The notes under the pieces: model-generated
The model's input: only the letters and a program-made list of their open reading frames with translations
Databases searched by the model: none
Told to the model about the DNA's origin: nothing
Source of the DNA: Actibacterium pelagium
GTDB lineage: Bacteria > Pseudomonadota > Alphaproteobacteria > Rhodobacterales > Rhodobacteraceae
Assembly: GCF_002285415.1 (NCBI RefSeq)
Contig: NZ_NSBU01000007.1
Span: 1,016,583-1,080,582 of the forward strand
Length of the DNA: 64,000 bases
Reading direction: 5' to 3'
Made by a program: the position numbers and the translations under genes
In this document: one piece after another, positions 20,132 through 24,924 of the stretch
How positions within the stretch are numbered: position 1 is the stretch's first letter
Layout of the letters: each line of letters opens with the position of its first letter

Positions 20132-20872
20132 TTAGACTTTCCCGGTGAGAGAGGTCAGCAACAACCCGCCCCGACGTCGAAACTCTGACAATTGCAACGC
20201 CCCTTCCGCGACAAGCATCGGATTAGACAGCGCGCGCTTCAACAGCGCCCGCGCCTGCCAGGCAGGCCATGTGGCCGGGTTCTTGGTCTTGGCGCGTGAC
20301 AGTCTGTTCAGCGCTTTCTGGGCCAGTTCAGAAATCGCTTCGGGGCGACCATCCAGCAAGGGTATGCGGTTCTGCGCCTCTAGCTCTGGGATGGCGCGCA
20401 GCCAACTGGCGACGCCACTGGCATAGGCAATGTCGCGGATCGCCGTTTCGTTGGTCTCACCCAACAACCGGGCAGCGGTCCACATCAGGTGGCCCGAGGT
20501 CGCATCGATATAGCGGTCGAAATCAGCCTCATCCTTGAACGGGTCACGGTAGATGTCCCACTGGCGCGCGGTAACCAGCCCGTCCAGAACAGCGGCAGCT
20601 TCGGCGTCCAGAACCTCGGCCAAAGGGGTTACGACCTCATGTCGACGCACGTGCCCGCCCTTGGCGATTTCATCCAAAGCGTCCCGCCACCATTGCAGGC
20701 GCATCTCGGCGATCATGGCTTCTTGCGTGACCCAAGGGGCCCGGGCCACTTCGAGGTTCATCGCATAAAGCGGGAACAGCACGGCACGCGCCGAAACCGG
20801 CGCGGCCATCGTCGCGGCAAATCGGTCCGGGTCGCCCTTGGCAACCTGATCTGCACAGGCCTGAAGGGTCAA
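20132..20872 (-). CDS. Squalene/phytoene-synthase-like protein, probably non-catalytic (NDUFAF6-like)
   Basis: 246 residues of the squalene/phytoene synthase fold. The Asp-rich prenyl-diphosphate motifs are missing: the first site reads YAMNLEVARAP (36-46) and the second LRAIPELEAQNRIPL (158-172). This pattern is that of the NDUFAF6 group, a respiratory complex I assembly factor in mitochondria. So it is probably not a terpene synthase. It overlaps cimA by 4 bases as the last gene of cysS-cimA. Only about 246 residues, shorter than active enzymes. Function in bacteria uncertain. Confidence 0.75.
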   Translation of the reverse strand: MTLQACADQVAKGDPDRFAATMAAPVSARAVLFPLYAMNLEVARAPWVTQEAMIAEMRLQWWRDALDEIAKGGHVRRHEVVTPLAEVLDAEAAAVLDGLVTARQWDIYRDPFKDEADFDRYIDATSGHLMWTAARLLGETNETAIRDIAYASGVASWLRAIPELEAQNRIPLLDGRPEAISELAQKALNRLSRAKTKNPATWPAWQARALLKRALSNPMLVAEGALQLSEFRRRGGLLLTSLTGKV

Positions 20873-22488
20873 ACCGCAGCCACCTTGTCGTGAACCAGTT
20901 TGTAGGTAATCGCATCCAGAAGCGCCTCGAACGAAGCATCGACTATGTTCGGCGACACACCCACGGTGGACCAGCGATGGCCATCGCCATCTTCGCTGTC
21001 GATGATAACGCGGGTCACGGCCTCGGTGCCGCCTTGTGTGATGCGGACCTTAAAGTCGACCAGCTTCATATCGTCGATCACCTGCTGATAGGGACCAAGG
21101 TCCTTGCCAAGCGCGCGTGACAGCGCGTTCACCGGCCCCCGGTCATTGCCAGCGTCATCAAGGCTTTCCGAAGCGCTGATCATCTTTTCGCCACCCACTT
21201 CGACCACCACGACGGCCTCTGACAGGGTCTTCAGCACGTTATGGTCATCGCGGATACGTTCCACGCTGACACGGTAGCGGCGGACAGAGAAATAGTCCGG
21301 CAGAATGCCCAGCTCTTTCCGCGCTAAAAGTTCAAAACTGGCCTGCGCGGTGTCATAGGCATAGCCCAGCCCCTCGCGCCGCTTGATCTCGTCAAGGATG
21401 CGCGGCAAGGCCGCTTTGTCGGACACATTAAGGCCGGCTTCTTTCAGACGTTTGCGCAGGTTGGACTGGCCCGCCTGGTTGGACATCGGGATGATGCGTT
21501 CGTTGCCGACAATTTCAGGATCGATATGTTCGTAGGTCGAAGGATCCTTCAGGATCGCACTGGCATGAAGCCCGGCCTTATGGGCAAAGGCCGATGCACC
21601 CACGTAGGGGGCGCTTTTCGACGGAACACGGTTCAGGATGTCGTCCAGCTTACGCGATGCACGGGTCAGGCCAGCCAATGCTTTTTCCGTAACACCGACC
21701 TCAAAGGCACTGCGATAAGGCTCTTTCAGCATCAGCGTCGGGATCAGGGTCACAAGGTTGGCGTTGCCACAACGCTCTCCCAGGCCGTTCAGCGTACCTT
21801 GAATCTGACGCGCGCCCGCATCCACCGCGGCCAGAGACGAGGCAACGGCGTTGGACGTGTCATTATGGGTGTGGATGCCAACGTGATCGCCGGGGATACC
21901 GCCTTCGATCACGGCCTTGGTGATCTTATAGACCTCGGCCGGCAGGGTGCCGCCATTGGTGTCACACAGGACGATCCAGCGCGCACCGGCCTCGAATGCC
22001 ACGCGCAGACACTGCATCGCATATTCAGGGTTGGCCTTGTAGCCGTCAAAGAAATGCTCGGCGTCAAACAGCGCCTCGCGGCCCTGCGCCACCAGATGCG
22101 CGATCGAGGCGCCGATGTTTTCAAGGTTCTCTTCCAGCGTGATCCCAAGCGCCTTGGTCACGTGGTAGTCGTGGCTTTTGCCAACCAGACAGACGGCGGG
22201 CGTGTTCGCGTTCAGAACGCCAGCCAACACATCGTCATTCTCGGCAGAGCGCCCTGCCCGCTTGGTCATCCCAAACGCGGTGAAGGTCGCGCGGGTTTTC
22301 GGCGCTTGCTCGAAGAACTCGCTGTCAGTGGGGTTCGCCCCGGGCCAGCCGCCTTCGATATAGTCAATGCCAAGCGCGTCCAAAGTCTTTGCGATCTGAT
22401 GCTTTTCAGCCGTCGAGAACTGGACGCCCTGCGTCTGCTGGCCGTCGCGAAGCGTGGTGTCAAAAAGATACAGGCGTTCTTTGGTCAT
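20869..22488 (-). CDS. cimA: Citramalate synthase (CimA)
   Basis: 539 residues of the 2-isopropylmalate/citramalate synthase family. [12 protein letters not shown] at residues 9-20 starts the TIM barrel; [11 protein letters not shown] holds metal-binding histidines; the C-terminal regulatory LeuA-dimer domain spans about 400-535. The family member of this length makes (R)-citramalate from pyruvate and acetyl-CoA, the first step of the threonine-independent isoleucine route. It overlaps cysS by 4 bases, and lies behind a leader peptide with Ile and Cys codons. Confidence 0.9.
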
Positions 22489-23855
22489 TTCAGCGCCTCC
22501 AGTTTGGCGGGGTCGAAACCGGCGGCGGGCTGAAGCTCTACCCCGGCTTTGCTCATACGGACTTCAACGCCCGCCTCAAGCAGTGCTGTTTTCAGGGCAT
22601 CAACACCCGAGAAGTCTTTTGTTTCCATAGCCTTGGCACGAAGTGCCGCCAGCTGGCCAGCATATGCTGACAGGTCGACTTCTGGTGCCTTGGCCCAGTT
22701 GGGAACTTCGTCTCCCATAAACCCTAAGAACTGCAGTGTATGCCTCAAAGTTGGAGCATCATCAGCAACAGCAAGTTGATGACATTCTGCGATCGCGCCC
22801 GCGGTATTCAGATCGTCTGACAACGATTGAATGACGGCAACGTAAGGATTTCCAATTCCAGAGCCTTTATCTGCGATCGCATACCATTTTCGAAGAGTAC
22901 GTTCTGCCTCTTCCCGCTTCTTCTCGGTCCAATCCATCGGCTTGGAATAATGCGTCGACAGCATCACGAAGCGGATCACCTCGCCCGGCACGCCTTGGTC
23001 CAGCAAATCCCGTACGGTGAAGAAGTTGCCAAGCGACTTGGACATCTTCTTGCCTTCGACCTGCAGCATCTCGTTGTGCATCCAGACCTTGGCGAATTCG
23101 CCGTCTGGGTGGGCACAGCAGCTTTGCGCGATCTCATTTTCATGGTGCGGGAATTGCAGATCCAGCCCGCCGCCATGGATGTCAAAGCTTTCGCCCAACA
23201 ATTCATAGCTCATGGCAGAACATTCGATGTGCCAGCCCGGACGCCCCCGGCCCCACGGGCTGTCCCAGCCCGGCAGGTCGTCAGAGGACGGCTTCCAGAG
23301 CACAAAATCCATCGGGTTACGCTTATAGGGCGCGACCTCGACCCGGGCCCCCGCGATCATGTCATCGACCGAGCGGCCCGACAGCGCACCGTAATTCTTG
23401 TAGCTTTCCACGGCGAACAGCACGTGACCTTCGGCCGAGTAAGCGTGGCCTTTTTCGATCAACCCTTCGATCATCGAAATCATCTGCGGGATATACGCCG
23501 TGGCGCGCGGCATATGCGTCGGCTCTAGCGCGCCGATGGCGGACATGTCGTCCAGATACCATTGCGTGGTTTCGGCGGTGATCTCGCTGATCGGACGGCC
23601 GCTTTCGGCGGCACGCGCGTTGATCTTGTCATCGACGTCCGTGAAATTGCGGACGTAGGTCACGTGATCAGCGCCATAAACCTGTTGCAGCAGGCGGAAC
23701 AAGACGTCGAACACCAGCACGGGGCGCGCGTTGCCCAGATGCGCCCGGTCATAGACCGTCGGGCCACAGACATACATCCGCACATTCGCCGGATCGATGG
23801 GCGTGAAGACCTCTTTCTTGCGGGTCTTGGAGTTATAAAGCTTGATCTCGGTCAT
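22485..23855 (-). CDS. cysS: Cysteinyl-tRNA synthetase
   Basis: 456 residues, class I synthetase charging tRNA-Cys. Zinc/cysteine-selecting Cys30 in [13 protein letters not shown]-type motif AHLGNARP at 38-45; WHIECSAMS and [18 protein letters not shown] provide the remaining zinc ligands; KMSKS as KKMSKSLGN near 267. Length normal. ATG 23855 has AAGGA 7 bases upstream, placed directly after an alternative hairpin of the leader region. First gene of the cysS-cimA-psy-like operon. Confidence 0.97.
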
Positions 23856-23867
23856 AGCCGTTCCTTG

Positions 23868-23936
23868 CGCCTGTTCAGGCGGGGCTTATCACCAGTTTCA
23901 AAGGAATGAAATGACCGACCCGCCTGACTATGTCAG
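23868..23936 (-). promoter_or_regulatory. Attenuator-like RNA switch before cysS (three exclusive pairings)
   Basis: In the transcript: 1:2 is CTGAC-ATA-GTCAG (23936-23924) and includes the leader stop codon; 2:3 is TCAGGCGGG with CCCGCCTGA (23927-23919 with 23883-23875), a perfect 9 bp; 3:4 is CGCCTGAACAGGCG (23881-23868). Each pairing excludes the next. 3:4 ends one base before the cysS ribosome site AAGGA and has no U-run, so it could act on translation start rather than as a terminator. All seen in the sequence; the mechanism is inference. Confidence 0.65.
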
Positions 23937-23977
23937 CGGATAATAATGCAGCAGATGATGTTGGTGCCTTTGGTCAT
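23933..23977 (-). CDS. Leader peptide MTKGTNIICCIIIR upstream of cysS-cimA
   Basis: A 14-codon frame with consecutive codons ATC ATC TGC TGC ATT ATT ATC (Ile2-Cys2-Ile3) just before CGC TGA. The downstream genes are the Cys-tRNA synthetase and citramalate synthase (isoleucine pathway). The predicted promoter puts transcription start at 23977/23978, so the mRNA would be leaderless, beginning at this ATG. An in-frame ATG at 23989 lies inside the -10 box. The last codon and stop form the first arm of three exclusive RNA pairings. Together these suggest ribosome-mediated control by charged tRNA-Cys/Ile. No homologue known to me. Confidence 0.65.
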   Translation of the reverse strand: MTKGTNIICCIIIR

Positions 23978-23984
23978 GGAGGCG

Positions 23985-24013
23985 ACCATAGGCACCGTCA
24001 CCGCGCGGGTCAA
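23985..24013 (-). promoter_or_regulatory. Predicted promoter of the leader peptide-cysS operon
   Basis: Minus-strand TTGACC (24013-24008), 17-base spacer, TATGGT (23990-23985). The -35 box overlaps the stop codon of the upstream EamA gene. Expected start of transcription at 23977/23978 coincides with the leader ATG. Confidence 0.5.
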
Positions 24014-24924
24014 GCGCTCGCACGGTGGATCATCCGTAGATTGGGGCGCATTTGAGTGAGGATGGTCAAACCAATCCCCACAGCAATGATCAACGCCCCG
24101 ATCCAAGTGAGCGGCGGATAGACCTCTGCCAGAAACAACGATCCCGACCCAAGGCCGATGGCGGCTGACACATAGGCAATCTGGCTTAGCATGACGGGTC
24201 CACCCAACTCCTGCAGCCGGAAATAGGCTGGGAATGTCATGCCTGCTGCCAGAAACTGGACAAGAGTTACCCAGATCAACTGGCCCTCAAACAATTGTCC
24301 TGCGGGAACTCCGCCATAAAGAACGAATTGCAGCCCCACTAAGGGGATCAGCGCGAAACTGTGGCTCCAGAACGCCAACGCCAACGGATGCGCCCCTTTA
24401 GGCCAGTCCAGCGTGCGGTAAATGTTGCCGCTGGCAAGGATCGCGGGAAGGCCAAGGGCCGCAAGGCTCCACAAATCCACCGCATCCACACCCCCCTTGC
24501 CAAGAGTGACCAAACCCGCGCCGATCAGGCCGAACAGTATTCCGGCTACGCCCAAAAAGCCCGGTCCTTTCAGCCCGAATACGACTGACAGGCCAAGCGT
24601 GGCAACAGGCGACAACGCGGCCACAAGGCTGACCTGCCCCGCGCCAACGCGCGGCACCAGCACGGTGATCACGAAGTTGACCAAGGCAAAGCTAACCGCC
24701 CCGGAAATCAGGGTATAGCGCAACATCTGCCCGCGCGGCAGGGCGATCCCGCCCCGCAGGATCAGCGCCGGAAGGATCAGACCCGCCCCGCCCGCTGAAA
24801 GAACCATCGCCCACAAAAGCGGCGGCACCCCCGCAGCAGCAGCCAGCTTGCTAAGCGGAAAGGTCAGCCCGAACAGGCCCCCGGTATAAAGCAGCAGGAA
24901 GATGGCCTTGATACGATCAGGCAT
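24010..24924 (-). CDS. EamA/DMT-family transporter
   Basis: 304 residues, ten membrane helices in two EamA repeats (about 8-140 and 150-295), an inner-membrane exporter of the drug/metabolite superfamily. Substrate unknown. The start overlaps the VOC gene by 8 bases, so the two are translated together, and the pair lies behind a predicted SoxR-controlled promoter; export of a redox-active or toxic compound would fit. Its stop codon overlaps the predicted cysS leader promoter. Confidence 0.88.
   Translation of the reverse strand: MPDRIKAIFLLLYTGGLFGLTFPLSKLAAAAGVPPLLWAMVLSAGGAGLILPALILRGGIALPRGQMLRYTLISGAVSFALVNFVITVLVPRVGAGQVSLVAALSPVATLGLSVVFGLKGPGFLGVAGILFGLIGAGLVTLGKGGVDAVDLWSLAALGLPAILASGNIYRTLDWPKGAHPLALAFWSHSFALIPLVGLQFVLYGGVPAGQLFEGQLIWVTLVQFLAAGMTFPAYFRLQELGGPVMLSQIAYVSAAIGLGSGSLFLAEVYPPLTWIGALIIAVGIGLTILTQMRPNLRMIHRASA

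Follow-up and report, generated by a model that had tools for sequence, protein, structure and literature searches.

The short open reading frame that precedes cysS and cimA in the 64,000-nucleotide stretch of Actibacterium pelagium DNA analyzed here (the window) is, as judged by comparison with its relatives, a real, conserved, attenuator-like element that is known in part. In our assessment this leader probably functions as a ribosome-mediated attenuator that senses both charged tRNA-Cys and charged tRNA-Ile.

Very probably the leader is a copy of the uORFC-8-2 motif, of which 145 examples, exclusively before cysS in Rhodobacterales, are described in the available text of the source as an AUG-initiated uORF whose tandem Cys codons (UGC/UGU) are usually the 14th and 15th, with two prominent stems, of which the first contains these codons, and with a U run at the 3′ end (PMC8632094). 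Ribosome-mediated attenuation was proposed there on a Cys-only reading, the U run being consistent with an intrinsic terminator; isoleucine, citramalate, and cimA are absent from the main text (PMC8632094). In a literature search that left most subscription journals outside, the name uORFC-8-2 was found in no other paper, and no paper joined cysS, cimA or isoleucine, and this leader. Because of that publication and these negative searches, we regard the element as known; what is apparently new, as far as the literature search goes, is the reading with two amino acids, the connection with cimA, and the broader taxonomic range. An earlier note, made from the letters of the window alone, had taken a two-amino-acid leader of this kind to be new in Rhodobacterales; this apparently holds for the two-amino-acid reading but not for the element, which had already been published.

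Results

Leader ORF and downstream genes

The leader ORF (MTKGTNIICCIIIR plus TGA, 14 codons) lies at positions 23977–23933 of the minus strand, between a gene for an EamA-like transporter (24010–24924) and cysS, and reads ATG ACC AAA GGC ACC AAC ATC ATC TGC TGC ATT ATT ATC CGC TGA, with the tandem TGC TGC as codons 9 and 10. None of 300 dinucleotide shuffles of the window's upstream region gave as many Ile plus Cys codons in a uORF (p = 0.0033), the leader frame being counted for this test from an in-frame ATG four codons further upstream, inside the −10 box. The genes, pairings, and promoters described below are likewise on the minus strand. Downstream are cysS, encoding cysteine–tRNA ligase (22485–23855; TIGR00435, 426.5 bits, cut-off 340) and preceded by the Shine-Dalgarno sequence AAGGAA (23861–23866), and cimA, encoding citramalate synthase (20869–22488; TIGR00977, 593.7 bits, cut-off 450), whose start overlaps the cysS stop. 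The frame, its codons, and its position are exactly those given in the earlier note, and the profile scores confirmed its identification of both genes. A squalene/phytoene synthase-like gene (20132–20872), with a weak HpnD match below the cut-off, overlaps the end of cimA, and such a gene adjoins cimA at L082 and L083 too.

In a search of Rfam, no T-box, riboswitch, or other known RNA family matched the leader. The sole match, to mir-455, had an E value of 3.6 and was far under the gathering score, and we attribute it to chance.

Predicted promoter and start of the leader transcript

A promoter scan of the region gave a single promoter-like match (0.3 expected), consisting of a −35 box TTGACC (24013–24008), a spacer of 17 bases, and a −10 box TATGGT (23990–23985), the same site that had been noticed before. 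The −35 box overlaps the EamA-like gene upstream at its stop codon, and 7 bases separate the −10 box from the leader ATG. When 93 leaders were aligned on the ATG, TTG peaked at −36 to −34, TA began at −13 or −12 in 77, and C occupied −1 in 81%; TTG[ACG] occurred within −44 to −25 in 70 of the 93 leaders as compared to 16 expected. A Shine-Dalgarno-like sequence preceded the leader in 12 of 93 cases; whereas, one preceded cysS in 82 of 93. If the usual promoter-to-start distance holds, this spacing predicts that the leader transcript starts at the A of the ATG or one base before it. The claim that the mRNA is leaderless is thus supported by a promoter-to-ATG spacing conserved over 93 leaders.

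Association of the leader with linkage of cysS and cimA

The sample of the window's family contained one genome per genus, 199 genomes of which 188 had cimA. Stretches upstream of cimA were taken from 100 of the 188, and cysS was searched in 30 genomes (11 without cimA, 17 whose cimA scored low, and 2 of the 100), so that 128 of the 199 genomes, plus the window's own, were examined. The cysS search matched in 25 of the 30; it gave no match in G040, which holds a cimA fragment of 73% identity, G161, or G183. Loci were called linked when cysS lay within 4.5 kb upstream of cimA (98 of the 100) or when cimA lay in the cysS locus (16). A leader with an Ile/Cys run by a strict criterion, which gave false positives in 5 of 2280 shuffles, was present at 102 of the 114 linked loci but was missing from all 9 loci that lacked a linked cimA (Fisher p ~2e-8), the latter being a small, related sample in which cimA is either absent (L191, L192, L193, L203, L030, L026) or unlinked (L194, L020, L048), with L020, L048, L030, and L026 drawn from 80 cysS loci of other genomes. 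By a lax rule, a leader was found in 92 of the 98 cysS-bearing stretches upstream of cimA, at 105 of the 114 linked loci, and at 1 of the 5 loci without linked cimA in the family sample (L194); the lax-rule matches at L213, L214, and L194 look like chance. Twelve linked loci missed the strict criterion, and 10 of these, apparent losses, were without a convincing leader (L133, L154, L166, L179, L182, L188, L190, L200, L213, L214). One genome (G098) has, besides its cysS at L205, a second, divergent cysS (L215, 51% identity to the query) with no leader.

When cysS and cimA were apart, an Ile/Cys-run leader preceded neither gene (L020/L083, L048/L082, L194/L189), nor was there an Ile/Cys run before cimA genes not adjacent to cysS (L082–L089, L115, L189). 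In one genus, represented by three species (G118, G221, G222), cimA is absent, the only relative found being a 33%-identical paralogue that is probably LeuA; the leaders of these species, MDWICCLCRA, MEWICCPC, and MDWICCLCRA, have Cys runs without an Ile run, and their Cys codons show TGC/TGT exchanges. Four other genera (G115, G127, G162, G196) have a leader and no detectable cimA beyond a 32–33% paralogue, although G162 has an extra 62-residue stretch with 44% identity. Their cysS contigs end inside or ~0.6 kb after cysS, in assemblies of 300–870 contigs each, and cimA may therefore be unassembled. The strict-rule leaders L197, L199, L201, and L202, from genomes without detectable cimA and on contigs ending at or soon after cysS, were set aside from the contrast of 114 with 9 loci. 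If cimA were truly absent from the four genera, the contrast would become 102 of 114 as compared to 4 of 13 (p ~8e-6) and the tie between leader and cimA would be looser.

Isoleucine and cysteine codons among relatives

Since the lax and strict criteria use the Ile and Cys residues themselves, we also made a composition-blind call, in which the ORF was picked by how its stop codon is placed with respect to the GCGG motif downstream. This call gave one ORF each in 85 of 98 loci, with 30% Ile, 22% Cys, 0.7% Val, and 1.9% Leu; there were at least two Ile in 84 of the 85, at least two Cys in 75, and Ile at codon −3 in 80. Among 92 leaders, Ile occupied codon −3 in 87, Cys occupied no position in more than 67, and all had at least two Ile, including 9 with a single Cys. 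Leaders differ in how many Ile and Cys they have and in what order (MNCICIIICCITC, MTKGTNIICCIIIR, MTTVCTIIRICIIG, MNAPNRIIGIIIGG), the last of these, from the cimA-linked locus L209, having Ile and no Cys. Val and Leu made up 0.6% and 1.8% of leader residues as compared to 6.8% and 8.6% of cysS, which argues that Ile itself, rather than hydrophobicity, is conserved. At codons −7 and −8, the synonymous ATT and ATC interchange among leaders. Codon −3 (23942–23944 in the window) is ATT in 80 of the 87 leaders with Ile there, while ATT makes up 17% of the Ile codons in the cysS genes of the same loci; this bias suggests a constraint at the nucleotide level, possibly on the wobble codon or on the RNA. 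The earlier note had called for a comparison of the codons among relatives, and in the family sample and the composition-blind call alike they are conserved; the Ile codons are apparently conserved as well as the Cys codons, which is apparently new.

Pairings in the leader RNA

The lax rule was satisfied by 174 of 236 loci, and 144 of these had the GCGG motif and were used for covariation; 114 distinct rows from the 144, of length 85–112, made up the alignment for RNAalifold and for counts of both-side changes. The partner-swap scores reported below ignore the relatedness of the sequences.

The strongest covariation of all was found for a pairing, P0, that was not among the three described in the earlier note. 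P0 joins AUGACC at the start-codon end of the leader (23972–23977) to GGUCAU (23911–23916), which in the window is followed by a pyrimidine-rich stretch. In the partner-swap test with 144 leaders, own strands scored 6.41 and swapped strands 4.82, with a maximum of 5.37 in 5000 permutations (z ~11), and in 12 leaders from other clades the scores were 8.86 and 6.70 (z 4.1). In the Cys-only genus, P0 had at most 4 bp and fell below swapped partners.

The stop-codon hairpin P1 (CTGAC-ATA-GTCAG; 23918–23941) pairs 23941–23932 with 23928–23918, with a bulge at 23924. Both-side changes supported it (21 as compared to at most 13 in 1000 shuffles), while its partner-swap result was weak (7.27 as compared to 7.02, z 2.9, below the permutation maximum of 7.36). 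P2 (GGCGGG/CCCGCC) was the RNAalifold consensus structure. Its 5′ arm, UCAGGCGGG (23919–23927), is common to the P1 3′ arm and its 3′ arm, CCCGCCUGA (23875–23883), lies about 10 bases from the cysS Shine-Dalgarno sequence; the strings in the window are TCAGGCGGG (23927–23919) and CCCGCCTGA (23883–23875). Partner swapping gave z 4.9 for P2 in the 144 leaders, z 6.4 when the 12 other-clade leaders were added, and a weak z 1.7 in those 12 alone; its both-side count was reached by 3 of 1000 shuffles, and its inner pairs barely vary. P1 and P2 are mutually exclusive, since both use the strand 23927–23919, and P0 and P2 cross.

The first 72 nt folded with P0 around P1 (z −2.1; 6 of 200 shuffles folded as well); whereas, the full 125-nt leader RNA folded no better than shuffles (z −0.22). 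Without its first 34 nt, the window's RNA was predicted to fold into P2 instead of P0 plus P1. All three pairings named in the earlier note are present as strings, and P1 and P2 gained moderate support from covariation. The third, P3 (CGCCUGAACAGGCG; CGCCTGAACAGGCG at 23881–23868 in the window), had been placed beside the cysS ribosome site; its hairpin is part of the fold predicted for the RNA of the window itself, but over 144 relatives the mean MFE z of this stretch was +0.4, no better than shuffled, and P3 was not upheld as a lock on that site. We conclude that covariation argues strongly for P0, which is apparently new, and moderately for P1 and P2. A terminator scan of the leader region gave no terminator-like site and no consensus intrinsic terminator.

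A candidate second promoter of cysS

The motif TTTYC-N14-TTGMTAAG occurs at fixed spacing between the switch and cysS, both in leader and in many leader-free loci. In the window it corresponds to TTTCAT (23911–23906), 17 bases, and TG-A-TAAGC (23891–23884), and it resembles an extended −10 promoter whose −35 box is weak (23884–23911). Of 106 leader loci, 67 contained a match of at least 7 of 9 to TTGCTAAGC, as compared to 7.6 expected; of 20 loci that were leader-free or Cys-only, 11 did, as compared to 1.4 expected. As far as the available text allows, the motif probably overlaps the U run that was ascribed to a terminator (PMC8632094). We rejected the idea of a genome-wide promoter class: with up to 2 mismatches the window contained 7 matches as compared to 5.76 expected, and there was no exact match in the window's genome. 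Because the motif is unenriched in the window and has no exact match in its genome, we treat the second promoter as a candidate.

Taxonomic range

Among 80 cysS loci from other genomes, most of those from Rhodobacterales and several of the remainder had an Ile/Cys-rich uORF upstream of cysS. The strict rule was passed by 39 of the 49 loci L002–L050, and weaker leaders are carried by L009, L029, L042, and L046. Leaders were also present before cysS in Rhizobium (L063, MKTVICIICRKIIR) and Pararhizobium (L072, MKTVICIICRIIIR), with cimA on the same strand ~2.6 kb and ~3.4 kb beyond cysS, respectively, and in Stappia (L057), Propylenella, an Afifella MAG, a Neomegalonema MAG, and others. In a class sample, cysS matched in 113 of 114 genomes and 30 loci were read, 28 of them outside the family; among these 28, a strict leader occurred at 4 of 16 loci with cimA within ~1.5 kb after cysS and at 0 of 12 without. 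Since the leader is present in both Rhodobacterales and Hyphomicrobiales, it may be ancient in Alphaproteobacteria. In the class sample, a gene whose end, we presume, resembles the gltX C-terminus precedes a leader-free cysS at L224, L226, L242, L244, and further loci, which suggests an older gene order.

Discussion

The leader combines a short ORF in which codons for the regulated amino acids abound with the mutually exclusive structures P1 and P2; their link to the position of the ribosome, and with it stalling, termination, and the direction of the response, we infer from the arrangement. In the mechanism that we propose, the leader would be translated without a ribosome-binding site, since RNA polymerase would start at the leader ATG. 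With Cys-tRNA and Ile-tRNA plentiful, the ribosome would pass the Ile and Cys codons and depart at the stop, whereupon the start-codon end would pair past the stop-codon hairpin (P0 plus P1); this compact structure, followed by the pyrimidine-rich stretch, would lower cysS-cimA expression, most likely by transcription termination. With either amino acid scarce, the ribosome would stall on the last Ile/Cys codons and cover the P1 5′ arm, so that GGCGGG would be freed to pair with the downstream CCCGCC (P2), excluding P1, and polymerase would continue into cysS-cimA. On the assumption that a stalled ribosome reaches ~12–13 nt past the first A-site base, P1 would be blocked mainly by stalls on codons 10–13, which rank among the most constant of the Ile/Cys codons. 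In this scheme, cysS would be the counterpart of the Cys codons and cimA that of the Ile codons, and a second promoter between the switch and the gene may give basal cysS expression.

The closest competitor for the role of isoleucine is the reading published for uORFC-8-2 (PMC8632094, available text), namely that the tandem Cys codons do the sensing and the Ile codons are filler or structural in the RNA. The cimA-less genus, which keeps Cys codons alone, agrees with it, as do the partly nucleotide-driven look of ATT at −3 and, if cimA is truly absent there, the four genera that keep Ile codons without a detectable cimA. It does not explain why Ile at −3 (80 of 85 blind calls) is more constant than any Cys position, why Cys is down to a single codon in 9 of 92 leaders although every one of the 92 has two Ile or more, why an Ile-only leader exists (L209), or why there is no Ile run at the 9 decided loci without linked cimA. 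We consider this reading improbable. The earlier claim that the operon senses Cys and Ile together is borne out by the comparison with respect to the tuning of the codons, against a prior published reading that was Cys-only.

How the structures act is a separate matter, since translational attenuation, in which they would hide or expose the cysS ribosome site, could be combined with dual sensing. We think it rather unlikely, although it deserves more weight than the Cys-only reading: a consensus intrinsic terminator is lacking and the P2 3′ arm is close to the Shine-Dalgarno sequence, but P3 is not conserved as a structure and the strongest covariation lies upstream, in P0, with pyrimidines following. 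Arrest of the ribosome by the nascent peptide itself, in response to a small molecule, might be suspected from the short conserved Ile/Cys core; the variable order and number of Ile and Cys in these leaders, however, are unlike sequence-specific arrest peptides and make such arrest very improbable. Hardly any credence can be given to a chance ORF or a DNA-level element such as a protein-binding site, for which the ATT bias at −3 and the separate promoter-like element conserved nearby might be cited, given the shuffle and composition-blind tests, the synonymous changes, and a promoter locked to the ATG.

Dual sensing of charged tRNA-Cys and tRNA-Ile is the reading that we favor, and comparison supports it well. 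With somewhat less assurance than for dual sensing itself, we lean toward a more specific proposal: a two-input attenuator that joins an aminoacyl-tRNA synthetase to a biosynthetic gene of another amino acid, with leader codons that follow gene linkage (Ile and Cys when the genes are joined, Cys only in the cimA-less genus, and no leader when they are apart) and with the start-codon end of a leaderless mRNA as one strand of the off-state structure. If true, this would correct the published Cys-only reading and extend the element beyond Rhodobacterales; it would also provide a natural experiment on how leader codons follow the presence or loss of a downstream gene, and how one leader serves two unrelated amino acids would become directly testable.

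The leader peptides of the thr and ilvGMEDA attenuators of enterobacteria likewise contain codons for two or more regulatory amino acids, and there a stalled ribosome selects the antiterminator. In those systems, the pathways that yield the amino acids are connected and the leader is equipped with a ribosome site; in the window's operon, by contrast, Cys and Ile correspond to two genes that are unrelated, and the leader mRNA looks leaderless. A leaderless 14-residue leader peptide in an alphaproteobacterium is known from the trpL attenuator of Sinorhizobium meliloti, which, according to the available text, contains Trp as its only regulatory residue and belongs to another operon (PMC10117765). 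Cys-rich leader ORFs before cys operons of Mycobacterium and relatives resemble the window leader in being short, in having Cys runs near the stop, and in having no conserved terminator hairpin; they precede other genes, and Ile codons go unmentioned in the available text (PMC1262725). The nearest relative remains uORFC-8-2, which shares with the window leader the location before cysS in Rhodobacterales, the order of the nearest named cysS loci here, as well as an AUG uORF with two tandem Cys codons. Compared by description only, its first stem may correspond to P0, which encloses the codons, its second to P1, which follows them, and its U-rich 3′ part to the pyrimidine-rich stretch. The two differ in that the Cys codons are usually 14 and 15 there and are 9 and 10 in the window leader, and a P2-like alternative pairing is undescribed in the available text (PMC8632094). 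The published range is Rhodobacterales only, as far as that text goes, while we found similar leaders in Rhizobium, Pararhizobium, and Stappia; this wider range bears on the published limits of uORFC-8-2, not on the membership of the window copy.
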